NCBI RefSeq assembly: GCF_900101815.1
Contig: NZ_FNAO01000003.1
Coordinates: forward strand, 475,109 to 539,108
DNA from: Pricia antarctica
GTDB taxonomy: Bacteria; Bacteroidota; Bacteroidia; Flavobacteriales; Flavobacteriaceae
Reading direction: 5' to 3'
Length of the DNA stretch: 64,000 nucleotides
Shown: in pieces, positions 58,044 through 64,000 of the stretch
Numbering within the stretch: the first letter of the stretch is position 1
Layout: every line of letters begins with the position of its first letter
Notes under the pieces: generated by a model
Told to the model about the DNA's origin: nothing
The model's input: the letters and a program-made list of their open reading frames with translations, nothing else
Databases searched by the model: none
Made by a program: the position numbers and the translations under genes

Positions 58044-58418
58044 CTACTCCATATAGGCCTGCCATTGGACGATCAGATATTTGTTCTTTGGATTTCGTTC
58101 CAACGAAAGAAAACCGTAATCATAGCAGAAAAGATAGACATCACCCTTTGTGTTTTTCCAATAGTGCGTGAAATATCTTGGGTCGAAGCCTTCGGCGATC
58201 AGTTCCGATCTGCGTATCGTGGTAAAACCGGACTTGTTGTACCGCTTCAACAGTTTTCTATTAATTTTCAATTGTCTATCCACTCTCAGATAAAACTTTT
58301 CGTCCTTTTGACGGTTTTCATATTGGTTAATGGACTTGCACTTTGTCGAGCAGAATATCTTATCCGTTCTCCCCCGTACAGGAGACCCGCATACCGGACA
58401 TTTTTTGTTTTCGCTCAT
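58044..58418 (-). CDS. Zinc-ribbon protein divergent from the cassette recombinase
   Basis: A 124-residue basic protein with an N-terminal zinc ribbon (CPVCG at 7-11, CSTKC at 23-27), a Lys/Arg-rich helix (about 40-65) and an aromatic C-terminus (GDVYLFCYDYGFLSLE). No characterised family is known to me. I recall similar ribbon proteins in Flavobacteria. It starts 64 bases from the divergent recombinase gene across a shared inverted repeat, suggesting common control and perhaps a joint function in recombination. Confidence 0.75.
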   Translation of the reverse strand: MSENKKCPVCGSPVRGRTDKIFCSTKCKSINQYENRQKDEKFYLRVDRQLKINRKLLKRYNKSGFTTIRRSELIAEGFDPRYFTHYWKNTKGDVYLFCYDYGFLSLERNPKNKYLIVQWQAYME

Positions 58419-58482: not shown

Positions 58483-59610
58483 ATGAATTCACTTAAATCA
58501 ATAACGCTATATCACCTGATGATCAAAGATCAAAAGATGATCGGCATCAAGTTTACGCCCGATAAGCTGATACAAGGGCTTATCAAAAGCCTACCGGGCC
58601 CGAAATGGAGCGAGCAATATAATATGGCCTATATCCCTAATACCAAGGGCAATCTGGGTATTATCTTCAACACTTTCAAGGGCCTGGTCTGGATAAACTA
58701 TAACAGGTTCTTCACGAACCGCCCCATCAATACCGGTAACGAAACCGTCGATGTAGAATGGTTCAGGAAAAGAACGCCGGTTCCCGGGCACAGGCCCTGC
58801 CCCGAGGAATACCTTCTTAAACTGGAATTGAGGCGGTATGCCAACAGTACGGTAAAGACCTATGTATCCTTTTTCGAGATGTTCATAAACCACTACAAGG
58901 AAAAAGAGCTGAATACTATCAATGAAAGTGATATCAGGGCGTTTCTTCAAACACTGATCCGTAGAAACGTATCTGACTCCTATCTCAACCAAGCTATCAA
59001 TGCCATTAAATTCTACTACGAAGTCGTATTGGGCATGCCCAACCGGTTCTATGACATCGAAAGGCCGCGTAAGGAGAGCAAACTGCCTACGGTCATCTCA
59101 AAGGAAGAGATACTGGCCATTATCGATAACACCAATAACATAAAGCACAGGTGCATCGTAGAGCTGCTATACGGGTCGGGCCTTCGCCGAAGCGAACTTC
59201 TGAACCTGAAAATTACCGATGTCGACAGTAAGCGGATGCTGATAAGGGTGCAAGGTGGCAAAGGGAGGAAGGACAGACTTACCCTATTGTCGAAATCCGC
59301 CCTGGAAGACCTTCGCGTCTACTATAAGGAATGGAAGCCCGGAAACTATCTGTTCGAGGGACGCAAAGCCTCCCGGTACGGTGCGGAAAGCGTATTGAAT
59401 ATAGTTAAAAAAGCTGCAGCAAGGGCAAAAATACCACAAACGGTCACCCCTCATGTACTACGCCATAGCTTTGCGACCCATCTATTGGAGTCCGGTGTTG
59501 ATCTCAGGCAGATACAGGTACTTTTGGGCCACGGTTCGAGCAAGACGACGGAAATATACACCCATGTGGCGACCAATACTTTTATGGAGATCAAAAATCC
59601 CTTAGATTAG
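58483..59610 (+). CDS. Tyrosine recombinase of the cassette array
   Basis: A 375-residue site-specific recombinase. An N-terminal extension of about 105 residues (SITLYHLMIKDQKMIGIKF and so on) is not part of XerC/XerD; then a SAM-like core-binding domain (about 108-185) and the catalytic domain with Arg235, Lys260, His324, Arg327, His350 and Tyr359 (GLRRSEL, GGKGRK, HVLRHSFATHLL, LLGHGSS, TTEIYTHV). The 15-20-residue insertion that IntI enzymes carry before the HxxR box is absent. I infer that it cuts the attI/attC sites behind it. Confidence 0.9.
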   Translation: MNSLKSITLYHLMIKDQKMIGIKFTPDKLIQGLIKSLPGPKWSEQYNMAYIPNTKGNLGIIFNTFKGLVWINYNRFFTNRPINTGNETVDVEWFRKRTPVPGHRPCPEEYLLKLELRRYANSTVKTYVSFFEMFINHYKEKELNTINESDIRAFLQTLIRRNVSDSYLNQAINAIKFYYEVVLGMPNRFYDIERPRKESKLPTVISKEEILAIIDNTNNIKHRCIVELLYGSGLRRSELLNLKITDVDSKRMLIRVQGGKGRKDRLTLLSKSALEDLRVYYKEWKPGNYLFEGRKASRYGAESVLNIVKKAAARAKIPQTVTPHVLRHSFATHLLESGVDLRQIQVLLGHGSSKTTEIYTHVATNTFMEIKNPLD

Positions 59611-59626
59611 TGTTCCTAAAATAGAA

Positions 59627-59661
59627 ATATAGTAACTTGTTACTATATACAATTGTTAGCA
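59627..59661 (+). other. Candidate attI site
   Basis: A perfect palindrome (ATATAGTAAC-TT-GTTACTATAT, 59627-59648) 17 bases behind the recombinase stop is followed by the core GTTAGCA (59655-59661). Its reverse complement TGCTAAC is exactly the R'' box of the first attC site, as expected if cassette A entered here. Confidence 0.7.
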
Positions 59662-60136
59662 AAAATAGCTCATTAAAAAAAGTCGTTATACTGTTCCAAA
59701 TTTTCCGGAATTAGAAAATAAACGGTAGACCAGAATCCTAATGGACCTGACTCAACGCAACTATTGCGGAGATGGACTTTTTAGCAGGTTTGCGCAAATG
59801 GACATCACTCGAAAACTCTGAATGGATTCTCGTGCCACTTTGCGCAGATGGACTTCACTCATGCGCAATCGTTACGCTGAAGGATTTTACTCGAACTGGG
59901 TTCAGAACGTTCCGATCTGTGCAATCGAAACGCAATCGGTCCGGGATCGTTGCGCAATCGTTATGCAATCTGTGCAAGCGAAACGTGCTCACTCATACGT
60001 GTCGCTACTTTTGCTAACATGACCTATGATCAATTGCTCGGGATTTTCCGATGGAAAATCCTCGCGCATTTACTATTTTAGGTGCGCGATGGGAAATCCT
60101 TCGGATTTCACAACGCAACTGATCATAGCTATGGCG
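59656..60136 (+). other. Cassette A, apparently non-coding
   Basis: About 480 bases between attI and the end of the first attC site. It contains several TGCGCA-centred units (TTTGCGCAAATGGAC, TTTGCGCAGATGGAC, CATGCGCAATCGTTA, GTTGCGCAATCGTTA) in a repeat-like context. Short frames exist but none looks like a protein. It may be a non-coding or RNA-coding cassette. Confidence 0.55.
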
Positions 60137-60142
60137 TTAGCG
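60012..60142 (+). repeat. attC-like site 1
   Basis: 131 bases. R'' TGCTAAC (60012-60018), spacer 5, L'' CTATGATCAATTGC (60024-60037), a 77-base loop, L' GCAACTGATCATAG (60115-60128), spacer 7, R' GTTAGCG (60136-60142). L''/L' pair with one A-C mismatch. The loop itself contains three small hairpins. The predicted cut lies between 60136 and 60137. Confidence 0.85.
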
Positions 60143-60279
60143 GCAAGCTAAAAAAAATCTCGCTTCAATTGAAAATCCAAACGAAAAGCCAGCCGCACAT
60201 TTTAGCACATTTGGTTTTTGCCACTACAAAACGCCAACGCTGAAAAAACCAAAAGAGCTAAAATTTTCCCACCGCAAAA

Positions 60280-60310
60280 TTTGGATATTAATAAAAATGT
60301 TTTAAATTTG
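60280..60310 (+). promoter_or_regulatory. Promoter of the restriction-modification cassette
   Basis: TTTG (60280-60283), 19 bases, then TAAATTTG (60303-60310), an exact match to the Bacteroidota -33/-7 promoter form. Transcription would begin near 60317. The cassette thus carries its own promoter and does not depend on one in the recombinase region. Confidence 0.7.
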
Positions 60311-60324
60311 TCAAAAAATGACAA
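60308..60324. promoter_or_regulatory. Operator (C-box-like) of the controller gene
   Basis: TTGTCA-AAAAA-TGACAA is a perfect inverted repeat overlapping the -7 box and the presumed transcription start. Such a position fits autorepression by the XRE controller encoded just downstream. Confidence 0.6.
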
Positions 60325-60329
60325 GTCTT

Positions 60330-60659
60330 ATGAAAACAACATTTGGCGAATATATTCGACTTTTAAGAACCGAAAAGGAATTGACCTTGACCCAACTTGC
60401 GGCCAAACTGAATTTGGACTCTGCCAATTTGAGCAAAATAGAGAATGGAATTCGAGATTTTGACGAAAAAAGACTTCCAAAATTGGCGAGAATTTTTAAA
60501 CTAAACTTAAAAGATTTACGAGAAGAATATATAACAGACCAACTCGGAAAAAAAATCTACGAAACGAACTGCACAAAACAACTCTTAAAAGTTGCTGAAG
60601 AAAAAGCAGAATATCGCAGAACACTCAATAAAAACCTTCAAACAGAAAAAGCAGTATGA
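60330..60659 (+). CDS. XRE-family controller of the restriction-modification system
   Basis: A 109-residue protein with an N-terminal helix-turn-helix (about 5-58: [20 protein letters not shown]) of the C-protein type and a charged C-terminal helix. Controllers time methyltransferase and nuclease expression when such systems enter a new host. The frame is open from an ATG at 60318, but that codon lies inside the palindromic operator and at the presumed transcription start, so I prefer the ATG at 60330. The end overlaps the methyltransferase start (ATGA). Confidence 0.85.
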
Positions 60660-61705
60660 AAATAGTATCATTTTTTGCAGGAGCAGGCGGACTTGATTTA
60701 GGATTCCAAAAAGCGGGATTCGATGTCATTTGGGCGAACGAATATGACAAAGAAATTTGGGAAACTTATGAAAAAAACCATCCCAAAACGACTTTGGATA
60801 AAAGAAGTATTGTTAACATCAAATCTGATGAAGTTCCTGAATGTGATGGAATTATTGGTGGACCACCTTGCCAAAGTTGGAGCGAAGCAGGTTCATTGCG
60901 TGGAATAAATGACAAACGCGGACAATTATTTTTCGATTTCATAAGAATATTAGAAGCAAAACAACCAAAGTTTTTCCTTGCCGAAAATGTGAGCGGAATG
61001 CTATTGGATAGACATAGCGAAGCTTTAAAAAACATTAAAGAACTTTTTAAAAATGCAGGGATTGGATATGAATTATCATTCCAATTACTAAACGCATCTG
61101 ACTTTGATGTTCCACAAGACAGAAAAAGAGTATTTTTTGTTGGTATTCGCAAAGACTTAAATTTTAAATTTCAATTTCCAAAACCAGTACAAGAAAAAAT
61201 TACGCTCGACCAAGCGATTTCGGATTTAAAAAATAGCGTTGTTCCAGCCAAAGAAGGAAACAAAACAAACAAAGAAATTTGTAAAATCTCAAATCACGAA
61301 TTTATGATTGGCGGATTTTCTTCAATGTTTATGTCGAGAAATCGAGTGAGAACTTGGGACGAACAATCATTTACAATTCAAGCAGGAGGTCGCCACGCAC
61401 CTATTCATCCTCAAGCACCAAAAATGAAATTTATTGAACAAAACGTTCGTGAGTTTGTGAAAGGAAAAGAGGATTTATACAGAAGATTGAGCGTAAGAGA
61501 ATGTGCAAGAATACAAACATTCCCAGATAATTTTACGTTCCATTATCACCACATTGCAGCAGGTTATAAAATGATTGGAAACGCAGTTCCAGTAAATCTT
61601 GCAAAACATATGGCTTTGAGCATTAAAATTCAAATTGAAAACGCAGAAAAACAACCTGCAAAAACAAATAAAAAACAATTGGAATTAGAAAACACATTAT
61701 CTTAA
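60656..61705 (+). CDS. DNA (cytosine-5-)-methyltransferase, HaeIII-like
   Basis: C5-cytosine methyltransferase of 349 residues. Motif [16 protein letters not shown], motif [10 protein letters not shown] with the catalytic Cys72, motif VI AENVSGM, motif [15 protein letters not shown], motif [20 protein letters not shown] and motif [14 protein letters not shown] are in normal order. The sequence follows M.HaeIII closely, so the target GGCC is likely. It is coupled to the controller by 4 bases and followed by the nuclease after 3 bases. The cassette is visibly more A+T-rich than the chromosome, a sign of transfer. Confidence 0.94.
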
Positions 61706-61708
61706 AGT

Positions 61709-62668
61709 ATGGCAAATCAGACAATAAATGGAAAAGCTTTTGAATATGCTTTGCTTTTGGAATTTTATGAACGTTTGAAAATTATAACAAGTGTTTCGAT
61801 TACCGAAAATGAACCTTATCAAAACGCAAAAGGTTGTTTTGAAAGTTTTATTGAAGATGAGCAAGATACTTTCAGAATCACAGCAAGTGCAGCGATTAAT
61901 TTTTTGATTGATATTGAACCAAGATTGTCAAATGGAATTAACAAAAATGACATATTGGTTCTTGAAATCGTGAGCGACCAAGCAGGACAAACAGGCGATG
62001 TTCGTGATGTTTTAGTAATTCGCTCTCTTCAAAAATGGGAAATTGGAATTTCTGCGAAGAACAATCATAGAGCAGTTAAACATTCTCGATTATCATTGAA
62101 CATTGATTTTGGCGAAAAGTGGTTAGGAGTTCCTTGTTCACAAAATTACTTTGCTGAAATTAAGCCAATATTTGATATGTTGGCAAATCTAAAAGCAAAG
62201 GATAAATCCACGAAATGGACTTCGATTGAAAATATGCACGAAGTAGTTTACGTGCCAATTTTAAATGCTTTTAGAAAAGAACTTTTAAGACTTGATAAAG
62301 CAAACCCAAATATTGTAGCCGAGAATCTTGTGCAATATTTGATTGGAAATGAAGATTTCTATAAAGTCATCAAAGGAAACAAAAAAGTTGAAATTCAAGC
62401 ATATAATTTAAAGGGAACTTTGAATTTACCATTTGAATCTGTAAAACCAAAAGCCAAAATTCCTAAACTTAAATTGCCGACAAGATTAATCGAAATTGTT
62501 TATCAGGATAATTCGACTACCACTTTATTGGTTTCTTTAAATGAAGGTTGGCAAATATCCTTTAGAATTCATAATGCAAGTTCCAGAATTGAACCATCAT
62601 TGAAATTTGACATTAATCTTGTGAGTGCACCACATACTTTATTCACAAATCATATTTTTATAGCATAA
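61709..62668 (+). CDS. HaeIII-family restriction endonuclease
   Basis: A 319-residue type II restriction enzyme, close to the length of R.HaeIII. Matching stretches are NGKAFEYALLLEFYERL near the N-terminus, DVRDVLVIRS, WEIGISAKNNHRAVKHSRLS and IDFGEKWLGVPCSQNYF, which hold the likely catalytic acidic and Lys residues. It should cleave GGCC when unmethylated. It starts 3 bases after the methyltransferase, so one transcript supplies both. It is the last gene of cassette B. Confidence 0.88.
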   Translation: MANQTINGKAFEYALLLEFYERLKIITSVSITENEPYQNAKGCFESFIEDEQDTFRITASAAINFLIDIEPRLSNGINKNDILVLEIVSDQAGQTGDVRDVLVIRSLQKWEIGISAKNNHRAVKHSRLSLNIDFGEKWLGVPCSQNYFAEIKPIFDMLANLKAKDKSTKWTSIENMHEVVYVPILNAFRKELLRLDKANPNIVAENLVQYLIGNEDFYKVIKGNKKVEIQAYNLKGTLNLPFESVKPKAKIPKLKLPTRLIEIVYQDNSTTTLLVSLNEGWQISFRIHNASSRIEPSLKFDINLVSAPHTLFTNHIFIA

Positions 62669-62813
62669 TGCCAACGCTAAAAGCCATACACATTTGCAAT
62701 TCGCACCAGCCAAAGCTCAAGCCAAAAATTGCAAAAGAGTATGTCTCGCCAACGCTCAATCCGAACAGAAATAGAAACATCGGAATTGAAAAGCAGAACG
62801 GAACAAAGCCAGC

Positions 62814-62946
62814 CGCTAACACCGTGTATAAGCAATAAGGGCTTTGTGTTTAACCCGAAAGTTATTATCTTTCAGCAATGTTCAGTTAATGACGGAATAT
62901 CATTGCTTATTTTGCCCCTTACTGCTCATACACATCAACGTTGTAA
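62814..62946 (+). repeat. attC-like site 2
   Basis: 133 bases at the end of the restriction-modification cassette. R'' CGCTAAC (62814-62820), spacer 3, L'' GTGTATAAGCAATAAGGGC (62824-62842), loop, L' GCCCCTTACTGCTCATACAC (62914-62933), spacer 6, R' GTTGTAA (62940-62946). R'' and two bases before it (GCCGCTAAC) are the reverse complement of the junction at site 1. Confidence 0.83.
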
Positions 62947-63412
62947 AATATAGCAGAATTCACTCAGATCCATAAAATCCAGAATCTGTAAACTGTCTGG
63001 TCTGAACTATTTCAGAAAACCAACTGTTGCGGAATTTTGAGCAAGTTTGCGGAATTTAAAATCGGATTTTATTTCAAAAACGGTCTATTAACAAAGGATT
63101 TTCTAAAACAAGTTTGCAAAATAAATAACGGAACCTTTGCAGTTTGCGGAATTTCTCAAGATGCGGAATTTAGCCAGATGCGGAATTATGCACGATGCGG
63201 AATTTGAGCAGTTCGCGGATTTGCTTACTCGAGCGCACAACCTAAATGAGTATTTTATCTAAAGTCTGAAATTCACGAAACTACATTTTACAACATCGCG
63301 TATAATTAATTGCTAGGTCTGTACTTCTTCCGAAAACCCTCGTGGATGCCAAAGTTCGTTTTTATTTGCTAAATTAGCGCTTGAGACGCGCAACTAATCA
63401 TACTCAAGGGCG
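62941..63412 (+). other. Cassette C, non-coding, with TGCGGAATT repeats
   Basis: About 470 bases without a convincing gene. The 9-base word TGCGGAATT occurs six times exactly (63028, 63048, 63145, 63162, 63179 and 63196) and once in a changed form at 63213; the last four exact copies are spaced by 17 bases. The frame of the repeats is not constant, so a repeat protein is unlikely. Confidence 0.6.
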
Positions 63413-63418
63413 TTGCAA
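63288..63418 (+). repeat. attC-like site 3
   Basis: 131 bases. R'' TTACAAC (63288-63294), spacer 5, L'' GTATAATTAATTGC (63300-63313), loop, L' GCAACTAATCATAC (63390-63403), spacer 8, R' GTTGCAA (63412-63418). The outer arm ATTTTACAAC is the exact reverse complement of the left junction of cassette C. Nearly identical to site 4. Confidence 0.85.
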
Positions 63419-63899
63419 GTAATACTCGGGCTTTATAGAAAGCCTCAAAATCAGAAATTTAACCAACCGTATTTAAAGATCAAAAAACGGAATTCGAAAC
63501 GGAAGCCAAAAAGCAAGTTGCGGAATTACTCACTCATGCGGAATTAAATGCATCGAAAAAAACTGAATTTCGATAACAGTGTAAATGACCGTTGCGCCAC
63601 CAATCGGAATAAAAAAATTTTTGCTGATGAGAATCAGAACGCTGAAAATCACTCTTGCGGAATTGACCAATCTTACGGAATTAGATCGGTTGCGGAAACT
63701 GAACTCACGAATTCCACGCAGAACGCACTTCTAATCCAAATCGTAACTAAACTAGAAACAGCCGTGATTACTACTTGCAACATCGCGTATAATTAATTGC
63801 TTGACCTGTTCTCCTTCCGAAAATCCTCGTGGATTCGCTAGTTCGTTTTTATTTGCTAAATTAGTGGCTTAAAGACGCAACTAATCATACTCAAGAGCG
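63413..63899 (+). other. Cassette D, with TGCGGAATT repeats
   Basis: About 490 bases. TGCGGAATT occurs three times exactly (63519, 63537 and 63656) with further variants (TTACGGAATT, TTGCGGAAAC). A frame at 63548-63796 runs into the attC site and looks unlike a protein; another short frame reads TEFETEAKKQVAELLTHAEL but lacks a start. I regard it as non-coding, with low certainty. Confidence 0.5.
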
Positions 63900-63905
63900 T
63901 TGCCA
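63775..63905 (+). repeat. attC-like site 4
   Basis: 131 bases. R'' TTGCAAC (63775-63781), spacer 5, L'' GTATAATTAATTGC (63787-63800), loop, L' GCAACTAATCATAC (63877-63890), spacer 8, R' GTTGCCA (63899-63905). The outer arm TACTTGCAAC is the reverse complement of the left junction of cassette D. L'' and L' are identical to those of site 3. Confidence 0.85.
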
Positions 63906-64000
63906 AACATTTTGTTCGGGTATTCAGGTCTGTGCTTAACCTATAACTGAGTACACCGAAACTCGGGCGGAATGTGGACCTGCCGCTCATGCGCAAATGG
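63900..64000 (+). other. Cassette E, truncated by the window end
   Basis: Begins TTGCCA after the fourth site and runs out of the window. It contains CTCATGCGCAAATGG, the same kind of unit as in cassette A. If the rule seen in A-D holds, its own attC site should begin with R'' TGGCAAC. Confidence 0.5.

Follow-up and report, generated by a model that had tools for sequence, protein, structure and literature searches.

Is the cassette array at the end of this contig an integron, and if it is, which enzyme works it and on what form of DNA? The window, a stretch of 64,000 nucleotides from Pricia antarctica, makes up the last part of contig C18 in genome G000 (positions 475109 to 539108 of 539108). 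Near its right end lies a gene for an Xer-like tyrosine recombinase, with four complete cassettes after it and then part of a fifth, where the contig end cuts the array. A first reading, made from the sequence alone (the sequence-only reading), had recognized an integron-like array whose cassettes bear the signature of a circular form. It was right about the array and the signature, but missed that the recombinase is not an IntI, and also missed the mostly bulge-free stems and G·T wobbles of the sites, an attI-like palindrome and a partner gene. The locus is one example of an integron-like system found in many Flavobacteriaceae, comprising a zinc-finger gene, an Xer-like recombinase, an attI-like palindrome and cassettes in one orientation. 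We consider it likely that cassettes are captured in the manner of an integron, by an Xer-like recombinase without the IntI insertion that recombines the folded bottom strand of attC-like sites, and that one-sided G·T wobbles are the mark of that strand. The elements in the window, with the basis of each assignment, are as follows.

58044 to 58418, minus strand: partner gene, divergent from the recombinase gene, encoding a four-cysteine, zinc-finger-like protein of 124 amino acids (conserved neighbor; cysteines)
58483 to 59610, plus strand: Xer-like tyrosine recombinase of 375 amino acids, without the IntI insertion (Pfam, NCBIfam, catalytic residues, insertion length)
58483 to 58785, plus strand: extra N-terminal domain of the recombinase, about 100 residues (no Pfam match; AlphaFold2 model)
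59627 to 59654, plus strand: attI-like element, with palindrome arms at 59627-59636 and 59639-59648 and a 6-base spacer before GTT (palindrome survey across loci)
59656 to 60136, plus strand: cassette A, no convincing gene (junctions, list of open reading frames)
60012 to 60142, plus strand: attC-like site A, 131 bases (junctions; 106.1 bits)
60137 to 62940, plus strand: cassette B, restriction-modification genes (junctions, Pfam)
62814 to 62946, plus strand: attC-like site B, 133 bases (junctions; 82.7 bits)
62941 to 63412, plus strand: cassette C, no convincing gene (junctions, open reading frames)
63288 to 63418, plus strand: attC-like site C, 131 bases (junctions; 108.9 bits)
63413 to 63899, plus strand: cassette D, no convincing gene (junctions, open reading frames)
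63775 to 63905, plus strand: attC-like site D, 131 bases (junctions; 117.1 bits)
63900 to 64000, plus strand: first part of a fifth cassette, which the contig end truncates (window end is contig end)

The GTT of the successive junctions starts at 59655, 60136, 62940, 63412 and 63899, and the R'' boxes of the four sites start at 60012, 62814, 63288 and 63775. As first read, the cassettes end in sites of 131 to 133 bases (131, 133, 131 and 131). The left end of each cassette matched the reverse complement of its own R'' without a break for 10, 9, 10 and 10 bases (cassettes A to D), in agreement with the claim of a seven-base complementarity reaching 9 to 10 bases. Over 14 bases the matches were 13, 12, 13 and 12. 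The single miss in the figure of 13 of 14 given earlier for cassette A falls at base 11, a wobble position that was mismatched in all four cassettes and always reads A against C on the top strand. R' and R'' inside one linear site matched less well, as had also been stated, at 7, 4, 8 and 7 of 14 bases. When the four left ends were paired with the four R'' boxes in all 24 ways, the true pairing gave 50 of 56 matches and the runner-up 42. A 13-mer from the R'' predicted for the next site (TGGCAAC) had no exact match in the window's own assembly; there were six places with one mismatch, against eight for a reversed control.

The same relation was found in a set of 186 cassettes from the window and its relatives, collected with a pattern finder that left the outer bases free and limited to cassettes of up to 8000 bases. 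All seven bases matched the cassette's own R'' in 159, whereas they did so within the linear site in 20, and in three random pairings in 6 to 12. A genome contig scan gave 379 relatives of the recombinase, and the best 80 of these are referred to as the named loci. In cassettes drawn from the 150 best of 219 site hits in their genomes, the corresponding figures were 84 of 104 and 10 of 104. Matching in the 186 cassettes remained high out to base 14 except at base 11, and was 0.10-0.26 from base 15; outer bases 4 to 10 varied freely between cassettes and were matched within each. Twenty-four cassettes matched at fewer than six bases. Many of these are long, and we take the 24 to span sites that the finder missed.

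For comparison, we took the surroundings of 12 true IntI genes from other Bacteroidota as a yardstick, with one and the same finder applied to both kinds of locus. This finder scored the strands symmetrically, with no wobble bonus, and required AAC[AC], CGTT and at least four of seven outer matches; it was used on 11 of the 12 IntI loci (in whichever orientation gave more sites, with two as the minimum) and on 12 of 19 flavobacterial stretches. The IntI loci yielded 59 sites and 45 cassettes, of which 34 matched their own R'' over seven bases and five did so in the linear site, and matching reached base 10-11. The flavobacterial stretches yielded 184 sites and 160 cassettes, with an own seven-base match in 109, and the match extended to base 14 except at base 11 (0.02). 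The integron-like reading of the array was supported, but the signature is not its special mark, since IntI arrays show it likewise. The signature fits a circular cassette, but the sequence does not tell whether the cut falls after the G of GTT, as proposed. Integrons in general have the circular-cassette signature; a mostly bulge-free, wobble-marked stem is not a general property of theirs.

The stems of the sites covary. We built a covariance model of the attC-like sites (R1); genome-wide searches with it scored a limited number of candidates per genome. In the 150 best of 258 hits of a first set, the inner 16-pair stem was 99.2% paired, and 92.4% of cells were paired, against 26-54% in slid controls. 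Near-fixed G·T wobbles, which are A·C mismatches on the top strand, sit on the bottom strand alone: beside AAC/GTT in 148 of 149, and within the L stem at the seventh pair (147 of 149) and the twelfth (149 of 149). In the named genomes (150 best of 219 hits) these counts were 147/148, 129/149 and 149/149. Base 11 of the cassette left end, which entered no finder rule (the window's four sites were given beforehand), was A in all 186 cassettes and never formed a Watson-Crick pair; its partner was C, making a bottom-only wobble, in 166. Among named genomes it was A in 103 of 104, again with no Watson-Crick pair, and a wobble in 84. Over 201 stems from the pattern finder, which fixed some L-stem letters, there were 549 bottom-strand wobbles and 13 on the top strand; with the symmetric finder, flavobacterial stems had 385 bottom-only and 9 top-only. 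The outer wobble (148 of 167) and the twelfth L pair lie at equal distance from the central spacer and agree in polarity, as they would in a pair of inverted half sites. Bulges were absent from 154 of the 184 flavobacterial stems, the other 30 having one each, whereas 56 of 59 stems at IntI loci were bulged, with seven bottom-only wobbles to three top-only.

The wobbles likely serve as a strand mark, the role that bulged bases have in classical attC, where one report, in the part of it that bears on this, has strand choice set by an extrahelical base (PMC2727003). The substrate is likely to be single-stranded and folded. Predicted folds were compared for the 167 of 186 cassettes with at least six of seven matches. 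In 158 of these the bottom strand of the circular form made in silico was more stable than the top strand, and in 157 it surpassed the linear form in stability.

Several observations weigh against a wobble-marked, folded bottom strand as the substrate of this recombinase. Whole-site folds of A and B were more stable than shuffles (z -9.33 and -3.36), but those of C and D were not (z 0.84 and -0.23). In 20 of 186 cassettes base 11 was mismatched in some other way than by a wobble, the seventh L pair was not a wobble in 20 of 149 named sites, and in a count anchored on 161 of the 167 cassettes the twelfth L pair was a G·T wobble in 107 and a Watson-Crick pair in 3. The seed sites of R1 came in part from a finder that rewarded bottom-strand wobbles, although the window's four did not. 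At the thresholds used, 19 of 64 genomes with sites lacked the recombinase, and 27 of 72 with the recombinase lacked a site. Finally, the recombinase of genome G004 has no N-terminal domain and yet stands beside sites with the same wobbles, so that this domain need not be the wobble reader.

The weak folds of C and D would be less troubling if the enzyme used duplex L'-R' half sites, as Xer does at dif, with the hairpin a mere trace of two inverted half sites that are told apart by the A/C differences between L'' and L'. Its closest folds are indeed those of Xer enzymes that act on duplex DNA, and it lacks the insertion tied to single-strand recombination. However, that bases 4 to 10 vary between cassettes and match within each fits pairing better than the reading of a sequence, and the fixed mismatches have the polarity of bottom-strand wobbles in both tallies of stems. 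We regard duplex half sites as unlikely, and continue with the folded bottom strand as the preferred substrate.

The recombinase has the catalytic residues and the fold of Xer-type tyrosine recombinases. It matched families in both Pfam and NCBIfam, and the catalytic residues were invariant in 13 aligned rows. Anatomy and circular-cassette signature being the same as in classical integrons, one might suppose that it is a divergent IntI, and the automatic NCBI names of its close relatives include "site-specific tyrosine recombinase/integron integrase." This is extremely improbable. The match to TIGR02249 (IntI) scored 218.6 bits against a curated cut-off of 265 and came in two stretches. The interval from R265 to P320 was 55-56 residues in 51 of 51 relatives, compared with 97 in 29 IntI (29 of 30 IntI loci entered this count), so that about 42 residues are missing; in an alignment with IntI4 (2a3v) the I2 region had 24 residues against 66. 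In a tree of rows of at least 230 residues, including 15 of the 29 IntI, the recombinase clade and IntI fell on separate branches with supports of 97/94 and 100/99; with its few outgroups, this tree neither shows nor excludes a sister relation to IntI. Three other Xer-like enzymes of the window's own genome lay outside the recombinase clade. R1 gave no significant hit in the 12 IntI loci (best E 0.45), and the stems there, as described above, are bulged. A classical integron with a divergent IntI thus failed on each of the features tested: TIGR02249, insertion, branch, bulges and R1. As a side observation, true IntI scored above the curated cut-off in 85 of 296 Bacteroidota genomes, and among the listed matches only G075 is of the window's class.

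What sets the system apart is the recombinase without the IntI insertion together with the wobble-marked stems, the circularization signature itself being ordinary. It is possible, and we put it forward tentatively, that this is a second integron lineage independent of IntI, in which an Xer-type recombinase that has no I2 helix captures cassettes as folded single strands, and the strand is chosen by G·T mismatches, set at constant distances in the two arms, instead of by bulges; in most members an XPB/MutS-like N-terminal domain may read the mismatches. The AlphaFold2 model of that domain had a pLDDT of 85, and its matches to XPB-like folds were weak. Two recombinase genes, one in G004 (contig C13) without the domain and one in G009 (contig C7) with a shorter version, are transcribed away from their sites, like classical intI. 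Broken copies of the recombinase also occur, with a large internal deletion at locus L024 (genome G021) and a stop codon in the matched stretch at L178.

Recombinase and sites occur together. Wherever a named locus has 1.5 kb or more of sequence past the recombinase, an R1 site lay downstream (49 of 49), and of the 80 overall 51 had one; the contig ended within 1 kb downstream in 27 of 80 loci, and within 1 kb upstream in none. Of the 150 best among the 219 named-locus hits, 146 were downstream of the recombinase and all 150 ran in its direction, and two of the full 219 were on the opposite strand. Among 196 genomes of the order, 45 had sites and recombinase, 19 sites only, 27 recombinase only and 105 neither (Fisher p 1.9e-11). 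Within the first 40 relatives, sites were present in 24 of 25 genomes of the window's own family, and the closest recombinases among the best 80 of 379 were from Arenibacter and Maribacter (86 and 83% identity). R1 sites occurred in at least 64 of the 196 genomes of the order and in at least 66 of 247 sampled across the phylum. In the order-wide sample, the 16 listed genomes of one genus of the window's family (g38) had no R1 site; several genomes of that genus have a relative of the recombinase, and their sites may be of another type. R1-type sites were also seen in other classes of the phylum, some of the genomes having IntI too (for example, G127 and G076).

Being repeated and intergenic, the sites might be passive palindromic repeats, of the REP or MITE kind, scattered between genes. 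Their arrangement makes this scarcely credible. In 15 of the 19 flavobacterial stretches the pattern finder located 201 sites, without a single one on the opposite strand; it located no site in the other four. Genes pointed with the array in 128 of 131 cassettes with an open reading frame of at least 70 amino acids, in a count over cassettes of up to 3500 bases in 11 of the 19 stretches. Such repeats would also have to account for the left-end complementarity, and they are contradicted by the exact duplication of whole cassettes described below. The recombinase gene of one locus (L210, Aequorivita viscosa) is flanked on either side by sites that share one direction, as if the module were inside an array.

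The relatives contained 83 pairs of full-length duplicate cassettes with at least 97% identity, genomes G017 and G002 being among those concerned; 75 of the pairs were in different arrays or more than 5 kb apart. Genome G017, a single contig, has two arrays about 470 kb apart with 98 sites found by pattern, and the two arrays have cassettes in common, with 100% identity over as many as 1677 bases. Averaged over 30 nucleotides, identity within the 83 pairs fell from 0.98 inside to 0.65 outside the left junction and from 1.00 to 0.41 at the right junction. With identity dropping in this way at their junctions, the duplicates demonstrate that cassettes move as exact units. They also counter the static array that the sequence-only reading had named as evidence against itself, although they come from relatives and not from sister strains. 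No cassette was common to different genomes in the set compared.

Could homologous recombination between similar sites shuffle the cassettes, with the recombinase a bystander? Sites within an array often resemble each other, and just beyond the left junction similarity (0.65) is above background. The latter is expected because every cassette follows a site of the same family. Moreover, the duplicates stop at GTT and not inside the site, the right flank was unlike in 76 of 83 pairs, and the recombinase adjoins the first cassette in all 49 of the testable named loci. We consider this explanation very unlikely, and infer from the linkage that this recombinase does the moving.

In the capture that we favor, the recombinase would bind the folded bottom strand of a cassette circle, its outer arm paired to base 14, and the bound circle would be joined at GTT to the attI-like site. 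Wobbles at set distances would make one strand the better hairpin, and might be read directly. After insertion the outer arm would be split between neighbors, with mainly AAC/GTT and the wobbles staying matched, and array sites should therefore be weaker substrates than circles. Insertion of free circles with a 14-base outer arm would be easier than excision at array sites. For resolution, replication would be required, as has been published for integrons.

The attI-like element recurs across loci. The left end of the first cassette could be placed via its own R'' in 26 of 42 loci; the first junction lay 44-53 nucleotides after the recombinase in 19 of these 26, and up to 183 in the others. 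A palindrome with arms of 9-13 bp, 3-7 nucleotides from GTT, preceded the first junction in 43 of 77 loci, compared with 2 of 700 control windows. The arms vary (26 distinct among the 43) but self-complementarity is kept, at 0.988 against 0.379 across loci. In 76 of 80 named loci a homologue of the partner gene lay on the opposite strand, 63-215 nucleotides upstream of the recombinase, with C7, C10, C23 and C27 conserved in at least 95% of 78 rows. In a wider set the partner was present in six of seven loci of the window's subclade and in none of 13 others.

The system shares with classical integrons the one-orientation cassettes, the R''-L''-loop-L'-R' sites, the GTT junctions, the complementarity of left end and own R'', and a recombinase adjoining the first cassette. 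By contrast, the recombinase here lacks the IntI insertion and mostly carries an extra N-terminal domain, in the window's subclade its gene is transcribed towards the array, the attI-like site is palindromic, a partner gene is present, and the stems are mostly bulge-free with bottom-strand wobbles and outer complementarity to base 14, not 10-11. It differs from Xer and XerA enzymes in its linkage to cassette arrays and an attI-like palindrome and in the N-terminal domain. The clusters known as CALIN are called with the classical attC model. They are defined, where one paper introduces them, as attC clusters without integrase (PMC9024848), and some site clusters here are likewise on contigs without the recombinase, such as C47 of G000. 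This contig (locus L076, 4319 bases) holds five sites of about 195 bases and is probably another piece of array. A passage of the same paper, on IntegronFinder 2.0, names one complete Bacteroidetes integron, in Salinibacter ruber M1 (PMC9024848).

The absence of the insertion bears on how single-strand recombination arose. Messier and Roy 2001 is reportedly the source cited for the necessity of the additional domain of IntI. One text calls this domain necessary for integron-mediated recombination in the lines concerned with it (PMC9668308), and a relevant section of another holds that it was through acquisition of the I2 helix that integron integrases became able to recombine single strands, extrahelical bases serving as landmarks, while stating that "a direct proof of causality ... 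is not available" (PMC7790495). Also described in that section is the CTX phage, which integrates as a single-stranded DNA hairpin via host XerCD (PMC7790495). In this precedent Xer enzymes act on a folded single strand although they have no I2, but CTX is a phage using host enzymes at dif, with no cassette array and no attI. A widespread natural system with cassettes and strand-polarized stems, without the I2 helix and mostly without bulges, makes the question of I2 causality open to direct test. It also hints at gene sharing on a large scale, in a system that searches based on IntI would be expected to miss. We found no paper describing it in a search of the open-access literature; the enzyme does carry a label in NCBI's names.

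The cargo of cassette B is a restriction-modification system.

60318 to 60659, plus strand: helix-turn-helix protein (Pfam HTH_3)
60656 to 61705, plus strand: C5 DNA methyltransferase (Pfam DNA_methylase, E 8.4e-98)
61709 to 62668, plus strand: HaeIII-type endonuclease (Pfam RE_HaeIII, E 3.5e-105)

Across the cassettes, genes from an alignment of 147 of 157 listed open reading frames included relatives of restriction-modification, HigB-type toxin-antitoxin, HamA, PtuA, PD-Lambda-2 and SIR2/HerA genes; relatives of phage-defense genes were among them. The non-coding cassettes have repeats of their own: TGCGGAATT recurs within C and D (63145-63205 and 63518-63686), and cassette A has repeats of the TGCGCAA type. 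Two places in the G002 array match the end of cassette A (59840-60034) with 78% identity, so that non-coding cassettes may form families.

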